Virus record (IMG/VR): IMGVR_UViG_3300020421_000144
Coordinates: 1 to 23,702 of that record
Reading direction: 5' to 3' (one strand)
Length of the DNA: 23,702 nt
Origin: a virus
Part shown: piece by piece, positions 3,001 through 23,115 of the stretch
Numbering within the stretch: position 1 is the first letter of the stretch
Layout: every line of letters begins with the position of its first letter
Translations under genes and position numbers: made by a program
The notes under the pieces: generated by a model
The model's input: the letters and a program-made list of their open reading frames with translations, nothing else
Databases searched by the model: none
What the model was told of the DNA's origin: nothing

Positions 3001-6000
3001 AACTTCAATATCAACCTTAGAGTCAAACTTAACTTTAGGGAAATAGTCAAATAACTGTAATGGTGACTCTTCAAAGACTTGATCGGGATCATCAGTTTCA
3101 TCTTGCTCGATAACACCGCTTCTATCTTCGTCTTCTATGTCAAACAGTAAGATATCACCATTCTCTAGTGTTAGAGCGTTTGTAGAGGCATTTGGTGCCC
3201 TCTCAACGTCAATATCAACATTCTCGTAAGGATCACGATATCTAACAACTCCAGTAGGAATGTTTTGCTGTACCGCAGTAGGACTTAAGTTCCAAGTATC
3301 AACAACAGAGTTGAAATCAGGACCCATCACATATGGGAACAGTGGATTACCATCTTCAGTAGCATCAATAGTAACAAAGTAGCAATATCTACCTTCTGGA
3401 TACTCAGGAGTCTTACAGAATCTACCATTGTACTGATCTAATGCACCAAGACCAAAAACGTATTCATAGTCTTCAATAAACTTACCTGCTGCTTCTGCAG
3501 AAAGTAAAGGTCCCGCTGTTCTGACGGGATTTGGATTAGAGTCAACATTATAGACAAGATTTGTCTTGAGTCTATAGGAGGTGTTGAGTTTTGTGATGGA
3601 AGATGATTGATCAGTAGGATCGGAGTAACCATAAGGACCATAAATCGGGTTACCATCAAATGCCCAACCAATAATAGGAGAGTGAATCAATCCCTCTTCT
3701 CGTTCCTTAATTAATCCTGCTGTATTCTCAAATAAGTTATCACCAAGGATGTATCTCAGTGTTTGAGGATTTGATAAGTGAGCATACTCACCACCATACT
3801 GGTTATTAAATCCCTCAAAGACAGAACCCTTAGCATTATCAAATGTAGTAGTTTCTTGTAAGTTATATGTCCATTCAAAAACGTTAGCACTAAATGCTGC
3901 CTCTGCACCAACAGAGTTTAGATTGATAATTGTAGTTCCTTGAGTATATCCAATACCTTTGTTAATAATAGTGATACCAGTCACTCTACCCGCATTTTCA
4001 CCATCAGTATCGATGGTTGCTCTAGCAACAGCACCAAAACCTTGACCTTGAATAGTAATCTCAGGAGCAGTTGTATATCCAGAACCTGCAGAGATGATAG
4101 CAATAGAAATAATTCTACCGTTAGCAACGATTGCTTGTGCAACAGCACCACTACCAGAACTTAATGTGACATTAGGAGTAGAGGTGTAGGATTGACCACC
4201 TGATCCAACAGTAACTGCTTGAATAGGACCACGAACAGATGCAGTTGCTTGTGCACCAGTACCACCGCCACCAACAATAGTGATAGAAGGTTGTGAGGTA
4301 TATCCAGTACCGCCTGAGTTGATTAGAATTCTAGATACAACGCCTTTTGTAATAATAGCAGTTGCAGACGCTCCAGAACCGCCTCCACCAACGATAGAGA
4401 CCAGAGGAGAAGAAGTAAACCCAGAACCCGCTGCAGTAACAGTGATTTCGGAGACAGAACCGTTAACAGTAACGCTTGCAGTTGCTCCAGTTCCTCCACC
4501 ACCACTAATTGTTAAAACTGGTGGAGATGCAGCATCATAGTCTTTACCCGCATTTGTAATAGCAACACTAGTTACAGCACCAAAAGTTTTCTTAATAGTT
4601 GACTTGTAAGACCAGATAGATACGCCATTTACCCAAGTTCCAATAGGACCTGGATTAACACTGTTCTTAGTAGAGATTGTTTGTGAAACAATCGGGAAAC
4701 GATTTAATTTACGTTGGTTTCCTGGAAGAAGGGCAGATCCTGGGAAAGGACCAATCTTGTAGTTAGGAATACCAGTAGATGCTAAGTAAGCATGCTGTGT
4801 ATTGAAGAACGAGTTCTGAACGTTAGTTGTATAAGGACCAACAGCATTCAATACTGCAGTGCTATCAGACTTACCTTTGTTTAAGTCAACAGATACTAGA
4901 ATATTACCTTGTGGTGTTACAGTTGCAGGTTGAGGTAATTGATATTGGAATACAGTATTACTATCTCTAGATGTTACAAGGAACGTTCCGTTATAGATGA
5001 TTGGGTTTGCACCATAAACAGTAACCTGATCACCAACCAACAAACCATGATTGTTTGAGCAAGTAATAGTTGCAAACTGATTGTTAATGCCTCCAAACGT
5101 AACGCTAGTTACATTAATAAGTTTTTTTACGTTATATAACCATGTCGTCAAGTGGGGATCGATGCTAGTTCCACCTAGTTTCGACACAGTGAGTTTATCA
5201 CCAGGTAAGTAATAAGATCCAGTGTCAGTAAGGGTAGTCTGTTGTGCATCAACAATACCAACAACATTCAAGACAACTTCTTGAGGAGTGCCTTTATTAA
5301 CGAATACAGTGAAGTTGGATGTAACTTGAGTTGCAGAATCCCAATCTTCTACAATATTGTTAGCAGAACGAGTACACTCAATAAACTGGTTAAGTGATTT
5401 CTCTTTGTATTGTACAAGTTCAGATCCAGTACCTCTACCAATTACAAACTCACCGTTTCTTTCTGGCCAACCAATAGTAGAGTCAACCGTAATGATTGAA
5501 TCGGTTGTATTAAGAGGTTCTGCAAGTTTTGTTTTGTATGGTACGGTAAACGTCCCAACAATAGTTTCTTCAGAGAGAACAAGTTCAAAAATCTCTACAT
5601 CTGAAGTTTTGATTGAAATATAGTTTTCAACTAGTGCACTTGCATTAGTTACATTAGGATCTGCAATATCTGCTTCTTGAGTAAGCAAACCATCTCTAAT
5701 ATCATCAGGATTACCACTTACTAAGGTTGCACGCAAAATGGTATCAATAGACCAAGTTGCAGCAGAGGGTTTAATAATTTGGTCTTTTGGATATGTAACC
5801 GTTACAGTTTCACCGTAAAGTAACTTGAACAGATATGCAATACTGAATGAAGTACCTTTAGATGAATAAAAATCTTTAATAGTTTTGATCGCTGTACGAA
5901 CATCGATCTTCTTATAGTCAAGTTCTGGAACATCTGGTAAGAATTGTTCTGTATACTTGTCTAATAATCTCTTGATAAACAACGCATCAAGACATTTTAC

Positions 6001-9978: not shown

Positions 9979-10397
9979 TATTCGGGTCTCTGTAAGACAA
10001 AGGATATAGACTCAACAACAGGTAATCCAACAATCTTGTACTCGATCTCGATGTTAATCTTATTGTTAGCAACGATTGGAGTAACTACGACTCGTGTTAG
10101 GTTTACTCTTGGTTCATACTGTTTAATTGTATTTATTATCTCTTCCTTGATTGCATCTGCGGTAAATGCATCTAATGGTTCAAAAAGTAACTCATTTACT
10201 CTTGAACCAACCAGGGGTTGAAAGGGTTTTTCACCAGGAACAGTCAAAACTAGATTTTTGACTGCCTGTTTGATAGCATTATCGTTTTTCACGCTATAAA
10301 CGTCATTCGTAAAAGGATTTAATGGCAAAGCAATATTGAGATCTGCGAAATTACGAGATCTCTTAAAATTTTGCCCTTTTATGTCCTTTAACGCCAT
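9978..10397 (-). CDS. 25: Baseplate wedge subunit gp25 (GPW/gp25 family)
   Basis: 139 aa, about the length of T4 gp25 (132 aa). This small wedge protein helps start sheath assembly at the baseplate and is conserved from phage tails to type VI secretion (TssE). The diagnostic stretch is at residues ~30-75: TNDVYSVKNDNAIKQAV, then PGEKPFQPLVGSRVNELLFEP. The C-terminal half (INTIKQYEPRV, VVTPIVANNKINIEIEYKI) matches the strand-rich end of the family. The ATG overlaps the end of the 46-aa gene upstream by 10 nt, and its own stop overlaps the gp6 start. No residue seems to be missing. Confidence 0.93.
   Translation of the reverse strand: MALKDIKGQNFKRSRNFADLNIALPLNPFTNDVYSVKNDNAIKQAVKNLVLTVPGEKPFQPLVGSRVNELLFEPLDAFTADAIKEEIINTIKQYEPRVNLTRVVVTPIVANNKINIEIEYKIVGLPVVESISFVLQRPE
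10130..10137 (-). promoter_or_regulatory. Possible late promoter box inside gp25
   Basis: The minus strand reads AATAAATA, seven of eight bases of the T4 late box TATAAATA, 150 bp upstream of the gp6 start. It lies inside gp25 coding DNA, so it may be chance, or a secondary late start for gp6. Confidence 0.3.
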
Positions 10398-10528
10398 TTG
10401 CTATGAGGTCTTTCTTTTTTGTCGGGGTTTGCTTTCTCTATGTAGGGTGTAAGATTGTAATCTGTAACTAAACCTACAGTTCCATGAGTTTCCTTCATGT
10501 ACTTTGGATCGCGATCGGGATTAATCAT
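10388..10528 (-). CDS. Small hypothetical protein (46 aa) between PAAR and gp25
   Basis: The frame runs from ATG at 10528 to TAA at 10390-10388, overlapping the gp25 start by 10 nt. It is hydrophilic and basic at the end (MINPDRDPKYMKETHGTVGLVTD at the start, KKERPHSKWR at the end), with no membrane segment. Its start codon sits directly on the 3' foot of a hairpin and has no Shine-Dalgarno sequence. The overlap with gp25 and the late promoter 54 bp upstream suggest it is the first cistron of the gp25-gp6 unit, co-translated with baseplate proteins. I do not recognise the family. It could instead be only a translated leader that couples ribosomes into gp25. Confidence 0.7.
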   Translation of the reverse strand: MINPDRDPKYMKETHGTVGLVTDYNLTPYIEKANPDKKERPHSKWR

Positions 10529-10560
10529 AAAAGTTCAATGAGTAGTACATTAGAACTTTT
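10529..10560 (-). promoter_or_regulatory. Leader hairpin abutting the start codon of the 46-aa gene
   Basis: An 8-bp outer stem (AAAAGTTC with GAACTTTT) continues into a 4-bp inner stem (AATG with CATT) with one bulged base and a 7-nt loop. On the minus strand the hairpin ends exactly at the ATG at 10528. It lies in the leader expected from the late promoter at 10582-10589. The A+T-rich stem and lack of a long U tract argue against a normal terminator. Control of translation or mRNA protection is more likely. Confidence 0.6.
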
Positions 10561-10581
10561 TATGGGGTTGCTATCCCAATC

Positions 10582-10589
10582 TATTTATC
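10582..10589 (-). promoter_or_regulatory. T4-type late promoter (GATAAATA)
   Basis: The minus strand reads TGATAAATAG, matching seven of eight bases of the T4 late box TATAAATA and the xATAAATA form of cyanophages. The PAAR stop codon TGA overlaps it. The expected start near 10576 would give a leader of about 48 nt containing the hairpin, then the 46-aa gene, gp25 and gp6. Recognition would be by the phage gp55-type sigma factor. Confidence 0.65.
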
Positions 10590-11136
10590 AACCTCCGATG
10601 AAAACATTCTTACTTGATCCAGAAACTACACTTAAACATGGGAAAGGAGTAGTACCATTTCCAAATGGGTCTGCAAATCTACCTGCACGCCTACCGTTAA
10701 TGAATACTGTCTTTGTAGTTGCAAAAAGTCTTCGAGCATGACCTGTTGATGCTTCTCTACCTGCAGCGGTTCCTAAAGTACAATGCCAAGCAGGAGTATT
10801 CCTCACCGTAAAGCATTTCTTACCAACAGACATCGTTTTGTGCTGTGTAAAGGTGGGATGCGGAACTAGATCATCCTGATCAATGATTGGGATTAGATTA
10901 TTGATCATAACATTACGAACAATGGTAGTAGCAGGTTGTTGTGGCCAAGGTGTCCATGTTGCAAAATTATCCGCAATCGGCATTGCTCTAGTGTTGATCT
11001 GCGGTGCTAAGGAAGCATGAGGGCAAGGATTTGCAAAACCTCCACCTGGACCTGGTTGCCAGAGAACGCCATTTGCCTTACCATGTCCACTACATGTTCC
11101 CATGAATAGTGCTGCTGCTCCAGTCGCTCCAGTCAT
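10588..11136 (-). CDS. PAAR-domain baseplate spike-tip protein
   Basis: 182 aa. PAAR proteins sharpen the tip of the central spike of contractile tails (T4 gp5.4) and bind a metal through His and Cys. Support: Gly/Ala-rich N-terminus (MTGATGAAALFMGTCSGHGK), paired Cys/His segments (NPCPHAS, WHCTLGTAAG, VPHPTF), and the C-terminal signature at residues ~143-182 (TVFINGRRAGRFADP, then GSSKNVFIGG). It is longer than a minimal PAAR (about 95 aa), fitting the extended DUF4150-like form. A strong Shine-Dalgarno (AAGGAGG) lies 7 nt before the ATG, inside the preceding 26-aa frame. It sits next to gp25 and gp6, consistent with baseplate assembly. Confidence 0.88.
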   Translation of the reverse strand: MTGATGAAALFMGTCSGHGKANGVLWQPGPGGGFANPCPHASLAPQINTRAMPIADNFATWTPWPQQPATTIVRNVMINNLIPIIDQDDLVPHPTFTQHKTMSVGKKCFTVRNTPAWHCTLGTAAGREASTGHARRLFATTKTVFINGRRAGRFADPFGNGTTPFPCLSVVSGSSKNVFIGG

Positions 11137-11216
11137 TAATCCTCCTTTACGTCAAAGTAGTTAGAAACACATACACCCCAAAGAACAAATGCTCCAAAAA
11201 AGATTAAGTATTCCAT
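11136..11216 (-). CDS. Possible 26-aa membrane peptide
   Basis: An ATG at 11216 directly follows the TAA of the 870-aa gene, and its own TAA overlaps the PAAR ATG by one base. The product starts MEYLIFFGAFVLWGVCVSNY and ends FDVKED: one hydrophobic segment and an acidic tail. The tight packing on both sides favours a real gene or a coupling frame. It contains the PAAR Shine-Dalgarno. It has no clear ribosome site of its own, so it probably depends on reinitiation after the upstream stop. Confidence 0.5.
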   Translation of the reverse strand: MEYLIFFGAFVLWGVCVSNYFDVKED

Positions 11217-13829
11217 TTATGTTACCAAATAAGGGTTACCGTATACTCTAGTTGCTTTTGCCATGGTTTGTGCAGCATTAGTAAAGTCATTACGCATTAT
11301 CATGTCCCCACTTGCGCTCCAATTTTGACATCCTGGACCCTGAGGTACTTGTCCAAAGGGGAATGTGAATGTAGATGATGTAACTGCGCCAGTATTAGGA
11401 TCTGTAACACTTGGTCTACTTGAAGCAGATGCGCTACAAGAGAAATGTGCTTTTCCTACATTCTGTTGAGTAACTCCGAGTGTAACACGGATGTTTAACT
11501 GTTCCCTATTATCGGGTCTATACTGTCGTAATATGTATTTAGTTAGGTTTGACGCATATGGTAGTTCAGAGAAGGGTCCTTGTACTGTTTGAATAAAAGT
11601 CTCATCATATACCACAATTTCTGGAATTACATCTTGAGTAAAGTCCTCAGTTAGGTTTTCAATCGCTGTTCCTAGAGTTTCCATGTTATCTTTTGCTGCT
11701 TTCTTGAAATTTTGTGCTAATGCACTAGGTCCTAGGTCAACTCCATCAATTTCCTTATAACTTTGCTTTGGAAGCATGACTTCTTTGATAGATTTCATGT
11801 CTCCTCTTGAAAATTGCCTCTGAACCATGATTTCTCTACGCTTACTCTTAGGATCTAACTTAATTTCAATGTTTGGTTCGACAATTTCCGTAACTTGCTC
11901 TGCTAATTTATTCAAATCTTCCTTTCTTTGCGTATTATCTGCTAAAATCTCTTGAATTTTGGTCGAAGAGAGTCCATCAAACGCTTCTGCTGCGTCTGGG
12001 AACGTTTTATAGAAATTTTCGAGGTTATCAAACCCAAGATCGCGCAAAGATTCGTCTACAAACTTTTCAGTTCGCTTTTTATGGATGTTTACTACGGAAA
12101 TTTGAGGTAAATTGTTGCCACTATACCCGCTACCACCGTTTTTAATAGTAATTCCAGTCAAAACACCGTTTGTAAACTCCCCTTCAACCTCTGCAGGTGT
12201 TCCAGAATCAACATATGGTGCGGTAATACTTAATTGAGGTGTTCTTCCAAGCGTATCCCAACCAGAACCGCCTCCATTTGTGTTAATAATTGCTCCAACT
12301 ACCGTTCCATTAGCAACAACTGTCGAAACATCGGGTTGAATTAGAGTATTATAGACATCAGGAGCATTTTTATCAACAAAACCAGTGGCATATTGTACAG
12401 ATTTCTCTGTAAACTCGTAAAGTCCACCAAAAAACCCAACATCTTTGATGCCATAACCTGCAATTACCTTCACATCATGGTTACGATTGCTTGTATAATC
12501 AGTATTTTTGGTAAAATCACTACCATTTCCATCAAGATAAGCAAAATGATAAGGGAAATACCCTAGAGAAGGATCAAAATCACCTGCTACAGACGGTCCA
12601 TGAAGGACACGAGTGATTGTATGACCATTTAATGTGTCACCAGAGCGTAAAAGATCACTAATAGTTCCTGATTGTGATGGAATAGGTCCAACAGTAGTAA
12701 TTTTAATCGTCAGTGTAAAGGTTGTAGTACTATTATCGGGATGAATATGGTCATGAGTGATATTAAAGGTATCATTTACAGCATATCCTGTGCCAGGTTG
12801 AACAATATCAAGCACTGTCCAACGTGTACCACTGAATACAGTAGGATCAACTGACTCATCTTTGATAGGTTCGATACGAATATTGACTTGAAGACCTGTT
12901 TTTCCTGCTGTTTCAAGAGTATATACAGTAAATGTGGTTGCGCCCTCATCGCCCGCTTGCCAAGTATTCTGGGGAGAGTCGAATTGAATACCCTCAAGTT
13001 CACCTTCGTTCCATGCATCAGAGTAATTTACCCCATCATAGGACACTGAGAGGTCCGTTACACCGTTTGGAATGGTAGTAGATAGGGAATTGTATTCAAA
13101 TACGACTTTCTTACTACCTGTACCAATACCAAAGAGTGTGGGATGGGGGCAGTCGGGGTCGCCCGTATAATCGATATCCTGATCAATGGTATATGAACAC
13201 TGTGTGGAAGCGGGGGTACAGGTAAATCCTGCACAAGGGTGACAGATGGTATTATTAATGCTGCTCGACGCCCCAGGAGTTGTTGTTACCTCACCTGTCT
13301 CTGGATCTGTAGTAGTAGTGCTAGGCAGTGTAGTCGTGGATTCCTCGTCCTCAATGATATAAGCAGCAATACCGACCTGACCTGAGTTACTTGTTATATC
13401 ATACACATAAGCAAACCATGTATCACTCCCTTGAAACCCAAAGGAGAGTTCATTCGGGAAATAATCATAGATTGCAACAGCACCATCACTACACTCAGAA
13501 CAATCTGAAGAGGATTTAACTGCTTTACCACAGTTAGCAGCAGAAGCAGGTTGATAGAAACTTCCAGGACTTGTCCCGAAACTGGAATCACCTTCCTCTA
13601 GACAGACAATCTGGGAAGGATACATCACTGCTTGTCCCTCAGCACCAGAGACATTCACAGCATAGTTGTTTAAACTCAGACTGTTGCGTATAAAAGACTT
13701 CGGATACTCTTTATAAGACAATCCGATTGTTTGATCTGAAGGAGCAGGTACAAATCTAGGACATCCGTTTGGATCATCGCATGGATCTGTGATTCGATCT
13801 GCTCTCCCATCGACTATTTTACATCCCAT
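11217..13829 (-). CDS. Virion structural protein, 870 aa, function unknown
   Basis: I do not recognise the whole protein. Its place between small late genes and PAAR/gp25/gp6 implies a tail or baseplate part. The N-terminal ~230 residues are rich in Cys (CHPCAGFTC, SSDCSECSDG) with a Thr/Ser/Pro linker near residues 160-190. A YHYH-like stretch (YFPYHFAYLDG) lies near 421-435. Gly-rich repeats like those of the giant protein occur at about 343-365 and 496-583 (GITIKNGGSGY). From ~590 the chain becomes charged and helical (DESLRDLGFDNLENFYKTFP, SKRREIMVQRQ), then a strand-rich end. ATG at 13829 overlaps the upstream gene by 11 nt. Alternatives include a hub-associated protein or a short fibre. 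Confidence 0.85.
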   Translation of the reverse strand: MGCKIVDGRADRITDPCDDPNGCPRFVPAPSDQTIGLSYKEYPKSFIRNSLSLNNYAVNVSGAEGQAVMYPSQIVCLEEGDSSFGTSPGSFYQPASAANCGKAVKSSSDCSECSDGAVAIYDYFPNELSFGFQGSDTWFAYVYDITSNSGQVGIAAYIIEDEESTTTLPSTTTTDPETGEVTTTPGASSSINNTICHPCAGFTCTPASTQCSYTIDQDIDYTGDPDCPHPTLFGIGTGSKKVVFEYNSLSTTIPNGVTDLSVSYDGVNYSDAWNEGELEGIQFDSPQNTWQAGDEGATTFTVYTLETAGKTGLQVNIRIEPIKDESVDPTVFSGTRWTVLDIVQPGTGYAVNDTFNITHDHIHPDNSTTTFTLTIKITTVGPIPSQSGTISDLLRSGDTLNGHTITRVLHGPSVAGDFDPSLGYFPYHFAYLDGNGSDFTKNTDYTSNRNHDVKVIAGYGIKDVGFFGGLYEFTEKSVQYATGFVDKNAPDVYNTLIQPDVSTVVANGTVVGAIINTNGGGSGWDTLGRTPQLSITAPYVDSGTPAEVEGEFTNGVLTGITIKNGGSGYSGNNLPQISVVNIHKKRTEKFVDESLRDLGFDNLENFYKTFPDAAEAFDGLSSTKIQEILADNTQRKEDLNKLAEQVTEIVEPNIEIKLDPKSKRREIMVQRQFSRGDMKSIKEVMLPKQSYKEIDGVDLGPSALAQNFKKAAKDNMETLGTAIENLTEDFTQDVIPEIVVYDETFIQTVQGPFSELPYASNLTKYILRQYRPDNREQLNIRVTLGVTQQNVGKAHFSCSASASSRPSVTDPNTGAVTSSTFTFPFGQVPQGPGCQNWSASGDMIMRNDFTNAAQTMAKATRVYGNPYLVT

Positions 13830-14046
13830 TGACTTCTTTCTCCAACTTATCTAAACGTTGGTAGATATGATCGTAGTTTTCCTTTATATTTAAGTACTTT
13901 TCGTGTCCGTTTGGTTTATATAATATCTTTTCATGAAATGGCATTGTAGTTACATACTCTTCAATCTGTTTAATTCTATCTCCAAGGGAAAGTAAACACT
14001 CGTTGATAGTGTTCAAAGCAGTTACTACATCTTGTTCATTGTTCAT
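13819..14046 (-). CDS. Small hypothetical protein with coiled-coil character (75 aa)
   Basis: The frame opens MNNEQDVVTALNTINECLLS and continues with heptad-like hydrophobic spacing (LGDRIKQIEEYV), then a second heptad stretch at the end (YQRLDKLEKEV). Its start overlaps the upstream AbrB-like gene by 11 nt and its end overlaps the 870-aa gene by 11 nt, so it is in the same late transcript and translationally coupled. A short coiled coil made just ahead of a structural protein could be an assembly partner, but that is inference. I do not recognise the family. Confidence 0.8.
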   Translation of the reverse strand: MNNEQDVVTALNTINECLLSLGDRIKQIEEYVTTMPFHEKILYKPNGHEKYLNIKENYDHIYQRLDKLEKEVNGM

Positions 14047-14200
14047 TGCGTTTCTTCAAAGTAAAGGAGTCTTCCTCTATAGTGTAATCAAGTTCAGAGT
14101 TAACGGTCCAACCAAGTTCTTCACAAACCTCGTAAGGAATCGTAAGGATGAGATCACCAAAGTCGTCTTCTTCGAGTGTAGTGTAGAATCTGTGTGACAT
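14036..14200 (-). CDS. AbrB/MazE-like small protein (54 aa)
   Basis: The start is ATG at 14200, 3 nt after the previous stop, and the TGA is at 14038-14036. The sequence MSHRFYTTLEEDDFGDLILT, then IPYEVCEELGWTVNSELDY and a final strand (DSFTLKK), follows the swapped-hairpin pattern of AbrB/SpoVT/MazE N-terminal DNA-binding domains: a short strand, (D/E)xxGDLxLxIP, a helix EExLGW, and a closing strand. Small proteins of this kind are common in T4-like cyanophages. It could bind DNA as a dimer and regulate late genes or host functions; no toxin partner is visible nearby. The fold call is from pattern only. Confidence 0.78.
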   Translation of the reverse strand: MSHRFYTTLEEDDFGDLILTIPYEVCEELGWTVNSELDYTIEEDSFTLKKRNEQ

Positions 14201-14203
14201 ATT

Positions 14204-14407
14204 TCATAGGGGGTTCGTATTCTTAGAGGGGTGCATAGTCTTCCACCCCATCCATAGTGTATATAGTGCTTCGGGATTTTTGGTTGTATACGCACCTAGG
14301 TACATATCTGCAACCTGATACATGTCAGTGTGTAAGCAATTCTCATAGTGTATTAAAGACTCTAGGCACCATGTACGAAGATCTTGAGGATAATCTCTGG
14401 AGGGCAT
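14204..14407 (-). CDS. Hypothetical protein (67 aa), first gene of the late block
   Basis: The product opens MPSRDYPQDLRTWCLESLIHY and is rich in Trp, Tyr, Cys and His (NCLHTDMYQVADMYLGAY, LYTLWMGW), which suggests a compact helical fold. I do not recognise the family. It is the first gene below the 14408-14661 intergenic region and ends 3 nt before the AbrB-like gene. The leader has only a weak purine run (AGAGAAAAA) before ATG. A late-type box lies 33 nt upstream. Confidence 0.78.
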   Translation of the reverse strand: MPSRDYPQDLRTWCLESLIHYENCLHTDMYQVADMYLGAYTTKNPEALYTLWMGWKTMHPSKNTNPL

Positions 14408-14439
14408 TTTTTCTCTGGGAAATTTTTTGAATCTAGGTG

Positions 14440-14447
14440 TATTTAAT
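14440..14447 (-). promoter_or_regulatory. Candidate late promoter (weak box)
   Basis: The minus strand reads ATTAAATA, six of eight bases of the T4 late box, 33 nt before the 67-aa gene. The position suits the start of the late block, but the match is poor and the DNA is A+T rich. Confidence 0.3.
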
Positions 14448-14568
14448 AATTGAAATAATATAACTCTCGCTCTTGGGTACCTTTGTAGGTTAGGGTAGTT
14501 AACCGTTTTAATATAAGGGCGCGATTTTAGGGCGAGAACCCGCGCTATGACTGCGATCTCGACTGTTT

Positions 14569-14596
14569 ATTATAATATATAAGAGACTGCGGTTAA
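14569..14596 (-). promoter_or_regulatory. Candidate sigma70-type promoter in the junction region
   Basis: A perfect -10 (TATAAT, 14569-14574) lies 16 bp from a -35 with four of six matches (TTAACC, 14591-14596). It would give a leader of about 155 nt to the 67-aa gene. The -35 is imperfect. The rest of the leader includes a GC-rich patch (around 14520-14555) that stands out from its surroundings. Confidence 0.4.
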
Positions 14597-14607
14597 TTCA
14601 TAACATT

Positions 14608-14631
14608 AAAAAGGGGGTTGTTTTACCCCCT
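14608..14631 (-). terminator. Intrinsic terminator at the end of the small-gene block
   Basis: On the minus strand AGGGGG, an 8-nt loop and CCCCCT form a GC stem followed by a run of five T. It stands 31 nt after the stop of the 111-aa gene and separates the small-gene block from the late block. Confidence 0.8.
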
Positions 14632-14632
14632 A

Positions 14633-14661
14633 ATTATATCATTTTTTGGTGTGTCTGTCAA
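14633..14661 (-). promoter_or_regulatory. Consensus sigma70 promoter overlapping the terminator
   Basis: TTGACA (14656-14661), 17 bp, TATAAT (14633-14638): every base is consensus on the minus strand. The -35 begins directly after the stop codon of the 111-aa gene. The expected start, near 14626-14628, falls inside the first arm of the terminator. Transcripts begun here would lack much of that arm and could escape termination. Likely a strong early promoter read by host RNA polymerase. Confidence 0.8.
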
Positions 14662-14997
14662 CTAGGCGAAGCACCCGTTGAAATTTACCTCGATTCCGTT
14701 TTCAAAATCTTTAACTGTTTTGTTCTGGTAGTCACCTACGAACCATTCCCAGTTTTTTTGAAATACTCCGAAACCTGTCGCAAACTCATAACATAGAGCG
14801 TTTAATCTGCTCTTAGTTGTGTTTGACTGCCAACCGCCATCGAATAAAACAACAGTGCTATCTGTTACTGTTGCGATGTGATTGCCATGTAAAAAGACCT
14901 GTGCACCGTTTTCATCATGTGAAACAGAAGTGTTAGAACTGCTGAAGTTGTTACCAGTTCTGATTGCTCTGTTCATTTGTGCTTCGATCTTTCTCAT
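14662..14997 (-). CDS. Conserved cyanophage-type hypothetical protein (111 aa)
   Basis: The true start is probably ATG at 14997 (MRKIEAQMNRAIRTG). An upstream in-frame ATG at 15075 only translates the promoter module and would begin upstream of the predicted transcription start. The segment VVLFDGGWQSNTTKSRLNAL, then GFGVFQKNWEWFV, is a pattern I associate with small uncharacterised proteins of T4-like cyanophages; it is a strand-rich, Trp-containing fold. Promoter module 1 lies directly upstream and an intrinsic terminator follows, so it forms a monocistronic unit. The leader has no Shine-Dalgarno; it is A-rich (ACATAACAAACAAAG). Function unknown. Confidence 0.83.
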   Translation of the reverse strand: MRKIEAQMNRAIRTGNNFSSSNTSVSHDENGAQVFLHGNHIATVTDSTVVLFDGGWQSNTTKSRLNALCYEFATGFGVFQKNWEWFVGDYQNKTVKDFENGIEVNFNGCFA

Positions 14998-15024
14998 GTG
15001 TGTTGCTTTGTTTGTTATGTACTT

Positions 15025-15083
15025 ATTATAACCCCCTAGCAACCCCTGTGTAGTCACCTTATGCCACTTTGTCAACTGTCACA
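15025..15083 (-). promoter_or_regulatory. Promoter module 1 (24-bp TGNCA element + 29 bp + TATAAT)
   Basis: Element at 15060-15083: TGTGACA at the left, AAAGTGGCATA at the right. Spacer of 29 bp. -10 box TATAAT at 15025-15030. No -35 at 17 bp. The element encodes the last codons and stop of the upstream 68-aa gene. It drives the 111-aa gene. The -10 and next 19 nt are identical to module 2. Confidence 0.8.
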
Positions 15084-15265
15084 GGGCATTTGATTTCCAT
15101 ATAATAACCGATTGATTTAATATAATCAAATACGGATAATTTCGGCAATTCTTTATATCTTTCCCCTCTACGGTTTCTAACATCGTCCATAAAATGTTCC
15201 ATGTCGTAAATTGATACAAACTCCCCTACAAGTTCGCATTCTTCGTTGTAAATTAGATAGGTCAT
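15059..15265 (-). CDS. Hypothetical protein (68 aa)
   Basis: The preferred start is ATG at 15265 (MTYLIYNEECELVGEF), because GGAG lies 7 nt upstream; an ATG four codons earlier (15277) is the alternative. The chain is strand-then-helix with acidic and aromatic residues (SIYDMEHFMDDVRNRRGERY, FDYIKSIGYYMEIKC). Its last eight codons and stop are also promoter module 1, so the C-terminus (CPVTVDKVA) may be shaped by DNA constraint rather than protein function. It follows the 66-aa gene by 21 nt and shares its transcript. Family not recognised. Confidence 0.78.
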   Translation of the reverse strand: MTYLIYNEECELVGEFVSIYDMEHFMDDVRNRRGERYKELPKLSVFDYIKSIGYYMEIKCPVTVDKVA

Positions 15266-15286
15266 TTTATTCTCCATTGTTTATAT

Positions 15287-15487
15287 TTAAGGGGTGTAAA
15301 CATAATAACAATAACCTTCTGACATGAGATAATTTGCTGTCTTAGTTAACATCGGATCATCCCAACATTGATCGGTATCTAACAAGAATTGAAACAAAGA
15401 GATACCTTCATTTAGTGGGCATAATCCTTTCTCATAAAGTGTTAATAACTCAAGGTACTTTTGAGGTGCTTTGATGTTACTTAGCAT
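15287..15487 (-). CDS. Hypothetical protein (66 aa)
   Basis: The product opens MLSNIKAPQKYLELLTLYEK and ends YLMSEGYCYYVYTP. It is helical with an acidic middle (DTDQCWDDPMLTKTANY). I do not recognise a family, though the general look is common among small cyanophage early genes. A consensus-like sigma70 promoter lies about 39 nt upstream, giving a leader of about 30 nt, so this is likely the first gene of a two-gene early unit with the 68-aa gene. Confidence 0.8.
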   Translation of the reverse strand: MLSNIKAPQKYLELLTLYEKGLCPLNEGISLFQFLLDTDQCWDDPMLTKTANYLMSEGYCYYVYTP

Positions 15488-15525
15488 TGATACTTAGAAC
15501 CTTTGTTTGAAACCCTACAGTGTTA

Positions 15526-15554
15526 ATTGTACCAGAATTATAATAATTTGTCAA
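15526..15554 (-). promoter_or_regulatory. Strong sigma70 promoter (TTGACA-17-TACAAT)
   Basis: The -35 TTGACA (15549-15554) is perfect and the -10 TACAAT (15526-15531) has five of six matches, at the ideal 17 bp. The spacer is itself palindromic (AATTATTATAATT). It lacks the 24-bp element, so it probably belongs to a host-recognised early class. Upstream DNA to 15677 is A+T rich and noncoding; I see no other feature in it. Confidence 0.78.
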
Positions 15555-15677
15555 GTCTATCTGAGTTTTCTGACAGATGTTGACTTTCGGTAAGTTGCGT
15601 GCTAAGAGTACATTTAGTTGACACATTTAACACACTATTGTAAACACTTAGTGATTTTTTTAAGTATTTAACAATAT

Positions 15678-15821
15678 TCACAAATTTCTACGGAAAGTAA
15701 CATTTTTCCTTCTTACAGTTAATCTATAATAGTCCCATAAGTCTACAGTCAGTTCTTTACACATAGTCCAAAATGTGTTAAACTCGTTGTTACTTACTCC
15801 CTGCGGATTACTCTCCTTCAT
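15678..15821 (-). CDS. Small hypothetical protein (47 aa), overlaps upstream gene
   Basis: The frame starts at ATG 15821 inside the end of the 80-aa gene (14-nt overlap) and stops at TGA 15680-15678. It opens MKESNPQGVSNNEFNTFW and ends in a basic tail (RLTVRRKNVTFRRNL). The stretch FNTFWTMCKELTVDLWDYYR looks like an amphipathic helix. An overlapping start of this type is typical of translationally coupled phage genes. Family not recognised; it could be a small nucleic-acid or host-protein binder given the basic end. Confidence 0.68.
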   Translation of the reverse strand: MKESNPQGVSNNEFNTFWTMCKELTVDLWDYYRLTVRRKNVTFRRNL

Positions 15822-16050
15822 TGTTAGTTACCTCTTCAAAGTACCTATTCTGTTTATTACTTTTAACCATATCTTTCCATTGATGACTATACACTAAGAG
15901 GTTTACTTGTTGATACTTACTACATGCACCTATCTGTAATTCTTCTCTCTTTTCCCATTCATTTAGTACTAGGGTTATATAATCTTTATCAATGAAATTA
16001 ACGAACCCAAAATGTTCATTAAGTGAGTAATAATCGCCTTTTTGAAACAT
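15808..16050 (-). CDS. Hypothetical protein (80 aa)
   Basis: The product opens MFQKGDYYSLNEHFGFVNFI and continues with a strand-rich, Trp-containing middle (DYITLVLNEWEKREE, VNLLVYSHQWKDMV) and a polar tail (NRYFEEVTNNEGE). The alternating hydrophobic pattern suggests a small SH3-like barrel, but this is only an impression. It follows the 70-aa gene by 2 nt and overlaps the 47-aa gene, so the three form one unit. Family not recognised. Confidence 0.82.
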   Translation of the reverse strand: MFQKGDYYSLNEHFGFVNFIDKDYITLVLNEWEKREELQIGACSKYQQVNLLVYSHQWKDMVKSNKQNRYFEEVTNNEGE

Positions 16051-16052
16051 AA

Positions 16053-16265
16053 TTAGATCTTTAAATAAGGGAACTGATTGTTATCGAAAAAGACTAATTC
16101 ATTATGAACTAGACACTTTTCGTTTAAATGTTCATCATAGATAGCAACATTCTTTTTCAACTGATTAGGGTTGAGTTGTTGTAACTTAGTGAGCAAATCT
16201 TCATAGGTCATTGTTGCCATTACGTTAGTAGTTTGTTCACTCCAAGGGATAAGATTCCAAGACAT
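16053..16265 (-). CDS. Hypothetical protein (70 aa)
   Basis: The core MTYEDLLTKLQQLNPNQLKK, then NVAIYDEHLNEKC and ELVFFDNN, resembles a small phage protein pattern: a helix that starts TYEELL, followed by an xVxVYD strand. The ATG at 16265 is used here, but ATGs at 16220 and 16211 (MATMTYEDLL, MTYEDLL) would give the compact family-like form. None has a Shine-Dalgarno, so the start is uncertain. A late-type box lies 44 nt upstream of the longest start. Confidence 0.75.
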   Translation of the reverse strand: MSWNLIPWSEQTTNVMATMTYEDLLTKLQQLNPNQLKKNVAIYDEHLNEKCLVHNELVFFDNNQFPYLKI

Positions 16266-16307
16266 TTGAATTAATAAGTTAATACTACTTATACATGATT
16301 GCGGACG

Positions 16308-16514
16308 TTATTTATCACTTTCCGCACCAAGTTCATTTAGATCCGCAATAGTGAATAATTGATAATCTTCCTCCAATTCTTTAATATCAAACTCCATCAT
16401 GTAATGATCTAGATTAACACCTAATCGGGCAATTTCATTTAGATAAGATTGCATAACTTTCTTAGACTTGAAGTCATAAATGTTATGTTCTGTTGTCAAA
16501 GTTTGCTTAGTCAT
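16308..16514 (-). CDS. Hypothetical protein (68 aa)
   Basis: The product opens MTKQTLTTEHNIYDFKSKKV and is acidic and helical thereafter (LNEIARLGVNLDHYMMEFDI, then KELEEDYQLFTIADLNELGAESDK). It stands 41 nt after the 151-aa gene stop and is probably read from the same promoter (module 8); a TATACT-like -10 in the gap has no convincing -35. No family recognised. Its stop overlaps a late-type promoter box. Confidence 0.78.
   Translation of the reverse strand: MTKQTLTTEHNIYDFKSKKVMQSYLNEIARLGVNLDHYMMEFDIKELEEDYQLFTIADLNELGAESDK
16309..16316 (-). promoter_or_regulatory. Candidate late promoter inside the small-gene block
   Basis: The minus strand reads GATAAATA, the same box as at 10582-10589, again on a gene's stop codon (GAT AAA TAA). 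It lies 44 nt before the 70-aa gene. It is framed by a 5-bp inverted repeat (GCGGA/TCCGC). Confidence 0.4.
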
Positions 16515-16555
16515 TGTTAATTAGTGAGTAGAGTAAGTATAAAGAAAACAGGCGA

Positions 16556-17011
16556 TTATCTCATATAGAGATGACCACCTGCCCAGTCTGTATTGATTGG
16601 ATTGTGTATATAATTTCTCTCTCTGATAATTCTCATATCAAATCTTACATGTTTAGCGGGACTTTTCCATGATGCAGGTTTATATACCTGACCAGTTTTT
16701 TTATCAACAAATGCTGTTACTGATCCGCCAGAATGTCTAGGATCAACTTGAATAATCTTGAAATACTTTTTACCAGACTTGATTTCAAACTTAAGTAATT
16801 TCTCTGTACCGTCTTCGATACCTTTTAATTGCTGTTTAGCATAGTCTGATAAGTCTGCTCTAGGGTTAAGAATATTTCTAGAGTGCATATTAATACGATA
16901 CTGCTTATAATTCTCAGTCAATGCGTTTGCATATGCTTCAGTCCATTCTACAACTCTTTGCTCTAGAGTTTTTGTTTCTAATTCTTGAGTAGTTAGAGTT
17001 GTGATTGTCAT
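16556..17011 (-). CDS. Conserved cyanophage-type hypothetical protein (151 aa)
   Basis: The largest of the small-gene block apart from the helicase. It has a helical N-terminal half (VVEWTEAYANALTENYKQYR, then NPRADLSDYAKQQLKGIEDG) and a strand-rich C-terminal half with a distinctive motif (DPRHSGGSVTAFVDKKTGQV, then YKPASWKSPAKHVRFDMR). This motif looks familiar from uncharacterised cyanophage proteins; a basic groove (KSGKKYFKIIQV, KHVRF, IIRER) could bind nucleic acid, but this is inference. It is expressed from promoter module 8 through an ~80-nt leader with an 11-bp inverted repeat. No Shine-Dalgarno precedes ATG 17011. Confidence 0.85.
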   Translation of the reverse strand: MTITTLTTQELETKTLEQRVVEWTEAYANALTENYKQYRINMHSRNILNPRADLSDYAKQQLKGIEDGTEKLLKFEIKSGKKYFKIIQVDPRHSGGSVTAFVDKKTGQVYKPASWKSPAKHVRFDMRIIRERNYIHNPINTDWAGGHLYMR

Positions 17012-17037
17012 AGTGAGAATAATAAAGAAAAAAGGGA

Positions 17038-17090
17038 ATAAGCAAGAAAGGTATCCCTAAGCACTTGTGAATGTTAGCATTCTTGCTTAT
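17038..17090 (-). repeat. 11-bp inverted repeat in the leader of the 151-aa gene
   Basis: Minus strand: ATAAGCAAGAA (17080-17090) pairs perfectly with TTCTTGCTTAT (17038-17048) across a 31-nt loop, followed by UCCC and six U. A second, smaller hairpin (GAATG/CATTC) competes for part of the 5' arm. It begins about 7 nt after the -10 box, so it is in the transcript. It may act as an attenuator or structured leader. Confidence 0.65.
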
Positions 17091-17096
17091 GTTCTT

Positions 17097-17155
17097 ATTA
17101 TAGGGGAAGAACCAACCACATAAGGGCAATAGTGGACAGTTTATAAAGTGTCACT
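17097..17155 (-). promoter_or_regulatory. Promoter module 8 (24-bp TGNCA element + 29 bp + TATAAT)
   Basis: Element at 17132-17155 (AGTGACACTTTATAAACTG then TCCAC), the most diverged copy but keeping all seven invariant bases. Spacer of 29 bp. -10 TATAAT at 17097-17102. It contains the stop codon of the 59-aa gene and drives the 151-aa gene. No -35. Confidence 0.72.
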
Positions 17156-17320
17156 ATGCTGCTTGACAAGATATTCTCCTGTCTGTATTCTTTCAAATAC
17201 TGCTGACTGTTCATCAGTCAGTTCAAAATCCATATCTCTGAGAATATCCCAAAGTTTAATCATCTGGTAAGATTCATCAAATGACATTGGAATTGAAATG
17301 GGGAAATAAGTTTTTGACAT
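17141..17320 (-). CDS. Hypothetical protein (59 aa)
   Basis: ATG at 17320 overlaps the upstream TAA by one base (TAATG), and the TAA at 17143-17141 lies inside promoter module 8. It opens MSKTYFPISIPMSFDESYQM and has helical segments (IKLWDILRDMDFELTDEQSA, FERIQTGEYL). It is the last gene of the unit that starts at 17849. No family recognised. The tail (KQHSDTL) is encoded by the regulatory element. Confidence 0.78.
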   Translation of the reverse strand: MSKTYFPISIPMSFDESYQMIKLWDILRDMDFELTDEQSAVFERIQTGEYLVKQHSDTL

Positions 17321-17481
17321 TAATCGTACAATGGGTAACGTACTTCTTTTTCAACTGCATCCTTCATTACATCATACATTGCAAATTCGGGATCTTCCAA
17401 TTTACAAGTTGATAGGATGTTGATAACCTCCTCCATGAGACCGATTATCATTTTTTCTTTTGGTGTTGTCTTCATTGGCAT
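17320..17481 (-). CDS. Hypothetical protein (53 aa)
   Basis: The start at ATG 17481 (MPMKTTPKEKMI) is supported by GAGG 4 nt upstream; ATG 17475 is an alternative that overlaps the previous stop as ATGA. A TTG start at 17517 would only add residues from inside the upstream gene. The product is a short helix-rich protein (GLMEEVINILSTCKLEDPEF, then MKDAVEKEVRYPLYD). It is coupled to its neighbours by overlaps on both sides. No family recognised. Confidence 0.75.
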   Translation of the reverse strand: MPMKTTPKEKMIIGLMEEVINILSTCKLEDPEFAMYDVMKDAVEKEVRYPLYD

Positions 17482-17630
17482 AAGTCCTCGAATCTTTCTC
17501 TTGCAATATACTCGCAATGCTCCTGCAATGCTTCCTCGGTTAGTGTATCAGCAATGCCTGATTTCTTCATTGCTTCATACTCTTCATCAAAAAGAGTTTC
17601 TAACATATCTGCGTGATGTAAAACTGACAT
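17472..17630 (-). CDS. Hypothetical protein (52 aa)
   Basis: ATG at 17630 follows the TAA of the 72-aa gene directly. The TGA at 17474-17472 overlaps the next gene. It opens MSVLHHADMLETLFDEEYEA and continues acidic and helical (MKKSGIADTLTEEALQEHCE, YIARERFEDL). No motif that I recognise. The precise stop/start packing makes it a credible gene. Confidence 0.76.
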   Translation of the reverse strand: MSVLHHADMLETLFDEEYEAMKKSGIADTLTEEALQEHCEYIARERFEDLCQ

Positions 17631-17849
17631 TTAAGCAACCTCCCTTATGTAACCGTTTTCTGCTTTGATGAATGCATCTAACTTAGCAACATCTAGATCA
17701 GCATCATCAAATTCAATTTTAGCACATCCTGTAACACCCCACTCTTCCAACTCTTGAGTAAATTCTGCCCAGTTAGAGCAACAACATGCCATGTTTTGAA
17801 AGTTGTCAACTTGAACGATTCTGTTCATGATTGTTTGAGTTTTGTTCAT
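17631..17849 (-). CDS. Hypothetical protein (72 aa)
   Basis: First gene of a four-gene unit under promoter module 2. It opens MNKTQTIMNRIVQVDNFQNM, then has a triple-Cys patch (ACCCSNWAEFTQELEEWGV), and an acidic part (CAKIEFDDADLDVAKLDAFI). The Cys cluster could bind metal or form disulphides, but no full zinc motif is seen. The leader (AAGTACATAACAAACAAAG) has no Shine-Dalgarno and is shared with the 111-aa gene. An internal ATG at codon 8 is a possible second start. Confidence 0.82.
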   Translation of the reverse strand: MNKTQTIMNRIVQVDNFQNMACCCSNWAEFTQELEEWGVTGCAKIEFDDADLDVAKLDAFIKAENGYIREVA

Positions 17850-17873
17850 AGTATCTTTGTTTGTTATGTACTT

Positions 17874-17933
17874 ATTATAAACAATAATGAGATCAAAAGA
17901 AACCCACCTTGTGCCACTTTGTTATGTGTCATA
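17874..17933 (-). promoter_or_regulatory. Promoter module 2 (24-bp TGNCA element + 30 bp + TATAAT)
   Basis: Element at 17910-17933 (left TATGACA, right AAAGTGGCACA). Spacer of 30 bp. -10 TATAAT at 17874-17879. It holds the stop codon of the 44-aa gene. The right half and following AGGTG match module 1, as do the -10 and 19-nt leader. Confidence 0.8.
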
Positions 17934-18056
17934 GTCCTCCAGTTTTTTGAATAGGTTTGCATTAATGTGAATTATCTCTGCTTTGAGATCATCATTCTCA
18001 GAATAATGAAAGTTTAAGCATTCTTTGAGATATTCAACTTCTTCCTTACTAAACAT
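17922..18056 (-). CDS. Small hypothetical protein (44 aa)
   Basis: ATG at 18056 overlaps the upstream gene by 8 nt, with GGAGG 6-10 nt before it. TAA at 17924-17922 lies inside promoter module 2. It opens MFSKEEVEYLKECLNFHYSE and ends AEIIHINANLFKKLEDYDT; it is almost wholly helical, with a leucine/isoleucine heptad look. It is the last gene of the module 3 unit. Family not recognised; the start F-S-K-E-E is similar in style to the next gene (RDLTREEYELL). Confidence 0.75.
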   Translation of the reverse strand: MFSKEEVEYLKECLNFHYSENDDLKAEIIHINANLFKKLEDYDT

Positions 18057-20803: not shown

Positions 20804-20865
20804 ATTATAATGCCATAAAAAACCCCCTGATGGGGGGTTTAGTGGTCACTTTGTGAACTGTCACA
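20804..20865 (-). promoter_or_regulatory. Promoter module 5 (24-bp TGNCA element + 32 bp + TATAAT)
   Basis: Element at 20842-20865 (left TGTGACA, right AAAGTGACCAC). Spacer of 32 bp, which holds an intrinsic terminator. -10 TATAAT at 20804-20809. The element starts directly after the TGA of the 72-aa gene. The 3-bp longer spacer is the largest deviation in the set. Confidence 0.75.
20817..20840 (-). terminator. Intrinsic terminator inside the spacer of module 5
   Basis: Minus strand: AAACCCCC pairs with GGGGGTTT, loop of about 5 nt, followed by a T run (TTTTTT). It ends the module 6 unit and lies wholly between the 24-bp element and the -10 box of the next unit. Confidence 0.82.
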
Positions 20866-21801: not shown

Positions 21802-23034
21802 TTAGGAAACATAGGATACTGGCGGAATGCCCTCAACAAAGATATAATCAATGACATTCTGTAGTCTCTTTGCAATGCGATCTCCATACTTGTAACCAGT
21901 AGGTACGATTGCCTGACCAAACTGTTTTTTATACAAGTTGAATGCACCAACTGGAATGAGTCCCTGCTCAACTGCTTTACGATCATCTTTGTGAATACGA
22001 ATGACCCTACCAATAGTTTGTGCCATTTCAATAATAGGCAAGTTCCTCAACAAAACAGTATGAGTGAGACCAGTAACATTGATACCTTCAGACAGTATGC
22101 TGTAGTGAAAAACAACGAACCTCCTACTGTTATCGTTGCCCCACTCAGTAAGAGTATTGAAAAACTCTTCACGTCCAACTTTCTTGCCATTGATGATAGC
22201 ACCAAACTTTGATGTGATATGCATAACGTCATATCCATTCTCTTTGAGATAGTGTAGAATGTCAGTCCTACCCAACATGAAACCTAGGATCTTTGAACTA
22301 GGGGCAGCAACCAAAACTTTTGCTACTTCATTACTATCGAATGAATCTAGAATGTCTTTTAGGTTGGCAGCATCTACCTCAAAGTTGTTGTGCTTATCCC
22401 TGACTCGATCAGTCTCGAAAGGCACAACTTTAGGTGGTAGAATAGCACCTGCTTCGATCAATTCCTGTGCGGGTACTGACTCTAGAGTCTGACCCCACAC
22501 TTGTGAGTTGTTCATGCCACGATTCTTTGATGCACCACGTCCAAACTTAGGTGTTGCTGTGAATGCAAACCTGCGACTAGCATTGTATGTCATGCCCATC
22601 ACACCTTCAAAGAATCTTTTGCCTGTTCCATTGTGTGCTTCATCGTAGTAAATGGTATCAACATTGATGTCAGCATCTACCACACGATGCAATGAGTGAT
22701 AAGTTGTAAAAATGATCTTATGCTTAGTATGTGTGCTTACAAATAGTTTCACATCCTCTGCTTTTGTGCTAGAGAAATAGTGTGTCTCTCCTGAGTGAAC
22801 ATGCATAATATCTGCATCGAGACTGAACTCTGTAAACTCTGCACACAACTGATTTGCCAACAGAATACGAGGTGCAACTACAACTGTAGTTGAATCATAT
22901 CTCTGCTTCATTTGCTCCAACAAATCAGCGATCATGATATAAGTCTTACCACCACCAGTAGGCACGATGATCTGACCCATGTTGTATTCCTGCATGCGAT
23001 CAAATGCACGTTGCTGATGTGGTCTCAAGTTCAT
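21802..23034 (-). CDS. Superfamily 2 DEAH-type DNA helicase (UvsW/SSL2-like)
   Basis: 410 aa. SF2 motifs in order: Q-like start (LRPHQQRAF), Walker A PTGGGKT (25-31), motif Ia VVVAPRILLANQ, Walker B DEAH (131-134), motif III FTATP (158-162), motif V SILSEGINV (312-320), and motif VI QTIGRVIR (339-346). This is a full ATPase and helicase core with no obvious missing residue. T4-like phages use UvsW-type helicases to unwind R-loops, regress forks and shut down origin-dependent replication; cyanophages carry relatives described as SSL2/DEAD-like. The length is near the family minimum, without extra domains. It is its own transcription unit under module 7, ending at module 6. The leader is about 16 nt without a strong Shine-Dalgarno. 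Confidence 0.9.
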   Translation of the reverse strand: MNLRPHQQRAFDRMQEYNMGQIIVPTGGGKTYIMIADLLEQMKQRYDSTTVVVAPRILLANQLCAEFTEFSLDADIMHVHSGETHYFSSTKAEDVKLFVSTHTKHKIIFTTYHSLHRVVDADINVDTIYYDEAHNGTGKRFFEGVMGMTYNASRRFAFTATPKFGRGASKNRGMNNSQVWGQTLESVPAQELIEAGAILPPKVVPFETDRVRDKHNNFEVDAANLKDILDSFDSNEVAKVLVAAPSSKILGFMLGRTDILHYLKENGYDVMHITSKFGAIINGKKVGREEFFNTLTEWGNDNSRRFVVFHYSILSEGINVTGLTHTVLLRNLPIIEMAQTIGRVIRIHKDDRKAVEQGLIPVGAFNLYKKQFGQAIVPTGYKYGDRIAKRLQNVIDYIFVEGIPPVSYVS

Positions 23035-23056: not shown

Positions 23057-23115
23057 ATAATACAAGAAAAAACCCCTTGTGTCAAGGGGTTTAGTCCAGT
23101 TTGGCAACTGTCACA
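23057..23115 (-). promoter_or_regulatory. Promoter module 7 (24-bp TGNCA element + 29 bp + TATTAT) with -35
   Basis: Element at 23092-23115 (left TGTGACA, right AAACTGGACTA, the poorest right half). Spacer of 29 bp. -10 TATTAT at 23057-23062. Uniquely, a perfect -35 TTGACA (23080-23085) lies 17 bp upstream of the -10. It overlaps the stop codon of the 70-aa gene and drives the helicase. Confidence 0.8.
23067..23092 (-). terminator. Intrinsic terminator inside the spacer of module 7
   Basis: Minus strand: AAACCCCTTG, a 3-nt loop ACA, CAAGGGGTTT, then a T run. The -35 TTGACA is made of the stem top and the loop. It ends the unit upstream of the helicase while forming part of the helicase promoter. 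Confidence 0.85.

Follow-up and report, generated by a model that had tools for sequence, protein, structure and literature searches.

A consensus promoter and an intrinsic terminator are fused in an intergenic element of a T4-like cyanophage, in a register that places the predicted transcription start inside the terminator hairpin. This composite probably acts as a stop-and-restart relay and would be a variant of the PeSL kind of element found in T4-type phages. The register recurs at related promoters with many different arm sequences, and the overlap of promoter and terminator is not a product of chance.

The window, meaning the whole stretch of DNA analysed, is a 23,702-bp IMG/VR virus record that DNA and protein matches assign to a T4-like cyanophage fragment. 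The best megablast matches of positions 12000–17000 are metaG-MbCM1 (MbCM1) and P-RSM1. Minus-strand genes in the window include one for a uvsW-like helicase and the counterparts of gene 25 and gene 6, which code for baseplate wedge proteins. The composite, at 14608–14661, sits between the small-gene block and the baseplate block, at the edge of the small-gene block in the variable (hyperplastic) location between the uvsW-like gene and gene 25.

Parts of the composite site

The following features, all on the minus strand, define the site and its surroundings.

14662..14997, minus: upstream gene, 111 aa, phrog_554, whose TAG abuts the −35; judged by position, the counterpart of T4-GC 637 in MbCM1
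14664–14662, minus: TAG stop codon of the 111-aa gene
14661–14656, minus: −35 hexamer TTGACA
14638–14633, minus: −10 hexamer TATAAT with TGA just before it (extended −10); spacer of 17 nt
14631–14612, minus: terminator hairpin AGGGGG/CCCCCT; seven pairs with the inner pair, five G–C, loop of 6
14626, minus: predicted +1, seventh nucleotide after the −10 and last G of the 5′ arm, placed by spacing
14612–14608, minus: terminator T run, five T
14479..14495, minus: single-copy element CCCTAACCTACAAAGGT (a 17-mer), intergenic, 137 nt downstream of the composite's −10
14204..14407, minus: first downstream gene, 67 aa, phrog_707; T4-GC 389 by position
14036..14200, minus: downstream gene, 54 aa, phrog_661; T4-GC 390 by position
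13819..14046, minus: downstream gene, 75 aa, phrog_699; T4-GC 393 by position
11217..13829, minus: downstream structural gene, 870 aa, phrog_719, baseplate wedge subunit

The original prediction described TTGACA-17-TATAAT directly after a stop codon, with its expected start within the GGGGG arm of the terminator. The coordinates and the description are exact, on a strand left unstated there, and the predicted start falls on the arm's last G. The hairpin starts 1 nt after the −10. This sigma-70-type promoter is the sole 12/12 match among 45 promoter-like hits in positions 10001–18000, and exact TTGACA-17-TATAAT occurs once in the record. The linked terminator has the same orientation, with a G+C-rich stem followed by TTTTT. 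A strict criterion leaves four T-tailed terminators in the window, every one on the minus strand, and this is the only one of them between 20820 and 3529. An Rfam search of 14000–15700 returned no match up to E = 1.

The host-like consensus suggests an early promoter. Unmodified host polymerase is believed to transcribe the early genes of cyanomyoviruses, according to passages of a review (PMC2984593). We infer the use of the composite promoter, its polymerase and its start position.

A probable stop-and-restart relay

A polymerase arriving from the upstream small genes would copy the whole inverted repeat; the hairpin would fold and the transcript would be released at the T run. A polymerase starting at TTGACA-17-TATAAT would begin at the end of the 5′ arm, and because its RNA would hold the 3′ arm only, that RNA should be unable to fold and should pass. 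The composite promoter, rather than read-through from upstream, would then set the level of downstream RNA. Termination at the hairpin, and the infection stage at which the relay would matter, are presumed.

In predicted folds, RNA containing the whole repeat reaches −12.6 kcal/mol, and RNA that begins at the predicted +1 and extends beyond the T run gives 0. The asymmetry claimed earlier, between upstream RNA with the full hairpin and new RNA without the arm, therefore follows from the sequence and its predicted fold. Among 110 distinct pooled sites of the same register, the full hairpin has a median of −12.7 kcal/mol. RNA begun at the seventh nucleotide after the −10 has a median of 0.0, with three sites at or below −6 kcal/mol, so that the hairpin is lost at 107 of the 110. 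Many of these loci had been retrieved with the composite pattern itself, and the sites were chosen by register, so this result is one of consistency and not of selection. The self-exempting argument hinges on the start: with RNA begun 4 nt after the −10, a hairpin of −6 kcal/mol or lower would persist at 79 of the 110 sites, and with RNA begun at 5 nt, at 24. Further downstream, the leader RNA is no more stably folded than shuffled sequences (z −0.85 and −0.12).

The site had also been read as a one-way insulator between the small-gene and late blocks. Its position between blocks, the predicted asymmetry and the excess of the register uphold part of that reading. The insulating purpose finds no support: the composite's own promoter feeds the next block, no late motif is evident there, and 37 of 59 orthologous promoters have no comparable hairpin. 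Being the only strict terminator in its interval, the hairpin would keep transcripts of the small genes from running on into the baseplate block. The composite promoter reads into three small genes (phrog_707, 661 and 699) and then the baseplate wedge gene; because it transcribes into the baseplate block, 'stop and restart' fits better than 'insulator'. Points against a relay include the T run of five T only and the T-less hairpins that occur in the same register, as well as the orthologous promoters that have no such hairpin.

Early or late timing of the genes at this locus is presumptive. TAAATA-type late motifs are strongly biased towards the coding strand in 14 cyanophage genomes (for example ATAAATAA, 251 vs 12). 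The late-type (A/C)TAAATA is absent from the composite's intergenic region in the window, which holds only TTAAATA, at 14446–14440. A late promoter in the intergenic region of relatives was considered and rejected: TAAATA is not enriched after the 17-mer, occurring in 15 of 125 distinct regions vs 17.2 in shuffles.

Recurrence of two overlap registers

In the 14 cyanophage genomes, 411 T-tailed terminators were compared with promoters carrying up to two mismatches, against a null of 2000 local and 2000 global shifts. In register A the hairpin lies over the −35 (starting −48 to −38 from +1), and in register B, that of the window composite, +1 lies inside the hairpin (start −8 to +2). Register A was observed 21 times, with 1.6 (local) and 1.7 (global) expected, and register B 12 times vs 1.6 expected; none of the 2000 local or 2000 global shifts reached either count. 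The 12 register B sites include homologues and are not independent, representing about nine loci by eye. Together, 33 of the 411 terminators fall in register A or B. Hairpins at +7 to +60 are about as frequent as chance predicts (10 observed, two of them at one place, vs 9.0 and 7.8 expected). For promoters with at most one mismatch, registers A and B and the downstream interval gave counts of 6, 8 and 1, with local expectations of 0.47, 0.53 and 2.9.

In IMG/VR, an exact pattern with the hairpin 0–4 nt after the −10 matched 55 contigs, compared with three at 10–14 nt and none at 30–34 nt. The 55 contigs collapse to 29 distinct sequences in eight promoter clusters, and the three controls to two sequences. 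Among the matches listed for a looser pattern, a T tail follows 80 of 124 register sites vs 15 of 82 downstream controls, leaving 44 and 67, respectively, without one. A strict pattern for register A found no matches in IMG/VR, which is uninformative because the pattern (GGGG directly followed by five T, and exact TATAAT) was over-demanding.

A landmark test used loci (L206–L315) fetched solely through the independent downstream 17-mer, with promoters sought within 230 nt upstream. A register B hairpin was found at 22 of 59 distinct landmark-anchored promoters and is T-tailed at 19 of them; 200 shuffles gave means of 0.135 in register and 0.0 T-tailed. The 22 sites carry 16 distinct arm pairs; such diversity at one position, with complementarity kept every time, is the pattern expected of a hairpin under selection. 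The register is also found in MbCM1 and P-RSM1, both with the arms AGAGGGG/CCCCTCT, unlike those of the window; the record of P-RSM1 names Prochlorococcus MIT9303 as its host. The remaining 37 promoters have no register hairpin above threshold (at one of them, L251, a weaker one is present); at the orthologous site the promoter is thus more frequent than the terminator. The T-less hairpins at three of the 22 sites are left unexplained by termination.

Alternative explanations

Chance juxtaposition is hardly credible. Promoter-like sites, many of them weak, are in excess in positions 10001–18000 (45 found vs 25.6 in shuffles), which would favour accidental overlap, but the genome survey, the IMG/VR spacing counts and the landmark test all argue against it. 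A DNA operator function of the inverted repeat, with a phage or host regulator acting over +1, is improbable. Such an operator would account for a perfect dyad spanning +1 and for the T-less hairpins in the same register; however, the variety of arms (16 pairs among 22 sites) is unlike a single operator, and 19 of the 22 sites have a T tail. A far stronger contender, a little short of an even chance, is genome compaction only, in which a gene-end terminator and the next promoter share bases for lack of space, and registers in which a promoter would stop its own RNA are avoided. This is compatible with the relay, as the mechanism is the same and only the insulating purpose is dropped. It fits the occurrence of two different overlap registers, the missing terminator at 37 of 59 orthologous promoters and the scarcity of hairpins fully downstream of +1 at the best promoters (one observed vs 2.9 expected with at most one mismatch). 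That scarcity disappears with up to two mismatches, where downstream hairpins are at chance (10 observed; 9.0 and 7.8 expected), and avoidance alone does not yield two sharp peaks.

A classical PeSL, that is, a mobile promoter–stem-loop cassette of T4-type phages, is an unlikely identity for the site even though the ingredients, the T4-like phage and the border of a variable small-gene region are the same. In favour of this identity, T-tailed hairpins that span +1 occur in RB49 as well (offsets −25 and −5; position 3201). Nevertheless, five of 20 exact-consensus RB49 promoters have a hairpin and T run in series before the −35, and one such series cassette has four further BLAST hits in RB49, whereas the composite has no second copy in the window.

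Comparison with known systems

PeSLs, said to have been described by Arbiol in 2010 and Comeau in 2014, are reportedly composite promoter–terminator motifs of T4-like phages. A hairpin upstream of the promoter, in series, is a possible defining trait. The window composite resembles PeSLs in fusing an intrinsic terminator to a sigma-70-type promoter as a short intergenic unit in a variable region of a T4-like phage. It differs in having +1 inside the hairpin (in the other register, the −35 is inside), and its hairpin does not lie upstream of the promoter in series. In E. coli, the frd terminator overlaps the ampC attenuator. As at frd/ampC, the terminator of an upstream operon overlaps control DNA of the next gene; in contrast, ampC RNA itself carries the hairpin as an attenuator, and RNA from the window composite would be without the 5′ arm.

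The RB49 series sites, identified by eye, are at 34481, 45322, 73845, 98959 and 140913; at the first four the hairpin ends about 16–18 nt before the −35, unlike the composite. The BLAST search that found four further places similar to the 34481 cassette in RB49 yielded no other copy of the composite within the fragment that the window represents. The composite of MbCM1 matched weakly and in part, once in MbCM1 (35 nt, 86%) and once in P-RSM1 (41 nt, 78%). Among 56 RB49 terminators, −10-like hexamers 15–20 nt after the hairpin end were counted 13 times, and T-tailed hairpins start at −25 and −5 from +1. RB49 positions 3201, 36985, 115033 and 121736 have, by eye, an inverted repeat over a strong promoter, like the composite, but with the dyad centred on the spacer or −10 and not just after the −10, and three of the four lack the T run that the composite has. 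At 3201 there is a T run, with one arm before and one after +1, which by eye is the same self-exempting logic; the idea is thus not confined to cyanophages. Since RB49 contains series cassettes and yet overlapping sites too, the window element is best called a variant of the composite promoter–terminator kind and is not a proven PeSL.

According to passages of a cyanophage paper that mentions PeSLs (PMC4503421), their density in S-PM2 is far lower. In Sullivan 2010 (PMC3037559), separate programs were used to predict promoters and terminators, and the relevant passages leave overlap unmentioned. The titles and abstract openings matched by a literature search, for which alone this holds, contained no report of the register with +1 inside the hairpin.

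Other composites, dyads and promoter families

Two further sites in the window place a terminator in the −35 region.

23057..23092, minus: second composite, register A, upstream of the uvsW-like helicase (21802–23034); terminator AAACCCCTTG-ACA-CAAGGGGTTT (23092–23070) holding the −35 TTGACA (23085–23080), with −10 TATTAT at 23062–23057
20804..20840, minus: third, composite-like site; terminator 20840–20820 in the −35 position, TATAAT at 20809–20804, no good −35

Each lies just after one TGACAGTT-N3-8-AACTGTCA dyad, a motif that occurs in the window at 23113, 20863, 17153 and 15081 (minus). In the 14 cyanophage genomes there are 143 such dyads (3–19 each) vs 29 with scrambled half-sites (0–8 each; equal in S-CAM8). 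At 37 of the 143 the first −10-like hexamer begins 29–33 nt later, mostly 31, a spacing counted without a control; S-SM2, S-MbCM6 and S-ShM2 have no dyad with a −10-like hexamer at that distance. The dyads may mark an activator-dependent promoter class.

Phage promoters resembling TTGACATTGTAGAGGTTAAGTAATATAAT (e.g. loci L024, L052 and L078) carry a register B hairpin that lacks a T run, with a GGAG-type ribosome site after it; termination does not account for this family. At L008, L072, L077 and similar loci, the T run of a composite is followed immediately by ATG (CCCCCTTTTTAATG). If this ATG is a start codon, the leader would be about 19 nt, with no Shine–Dalgarno site by eye.

The downstream 17-mer

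Among 15 aligned loci, CCCTAACCTACAAAGGT is exact in 12 and has one change in three; these loci share the composite pattern and resemble the window's intergenic region by BLAST, and are not a blind sample. The element occurs once each in the window, MbCM1, P-RSM1 and S-SSM5, and with 0–2 mismatches in 11 of the 14 cyanophage genomes. Only degenerate candidates exist in S-PM2 (4 mismatches), S-SSM7 and S-CAM9 (3 each), and with that many mismatches chance hits are seen; another hit in S-PM2, at a different place, scores better than its candidate. T4 and RB49 gave only 4-mismatch hits. A 36-base query on CCCTAACCTACAAAGGT matched 323 phage records at a lax threshold (E up to 10); in 66 the match spans 80% or more of the query, and 321 of the 323 are named Synechococcus, Prochlorococcus or cyanophages. 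Among the matches listed, 58 of 60 fall under no annotated feature. Exact matches in GTDB contigs number 10, none of them in a contig titled as a cyanobacterium. An AACCT/AGGTT dyad inside the element was considered as a conserved hairpin; it probably is not one, because it is broken in P-SSM2 and in the degenerate S-PM2, S-SSM7 and S-CAM9 candidates.

In the T4 record, oriF lies between uvsW and gene 25, the same interval as CCCTAACCTACAAAGGT, but the two are oriented differently with respect to gene 25 and have no sequence in common. The detrended GC-skew maximum is roughly 3–14 kb from CCCTAACCTACAAAGGT in 10 of the 14 genomes and far from it in four, which is not decisive for an origin. 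A broader proposal is that cyanophage self-exempting terminators, in two fixed registers, form a general relay that here shields a cis-acting CCCTAACCTACAAAGGT, for example a transcription-primed replication origin; this has a low likelihood, and an origin at CCCTAACCTACAAAGGT is itself a speculative idea with much the same slim prospect.

Implications

Passages of a 2010 review describe the mechanism of early and middle transcription in cyanomyoviruses as still unclear (PMC2984593). The two terminator–promoter registers, and the dyad often found about 31 nt before a −10, provide concrete sites to test. If the relay works as predicted, 54 bp would suffice to end one transcription unit and begin another while blocking upstream RNA, and such a compact stop-restart part might also serve synthetic circuits. 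Judging from sequence comparisons, similar compact stop-and-restart sites appear to recur in related ocean viruses.
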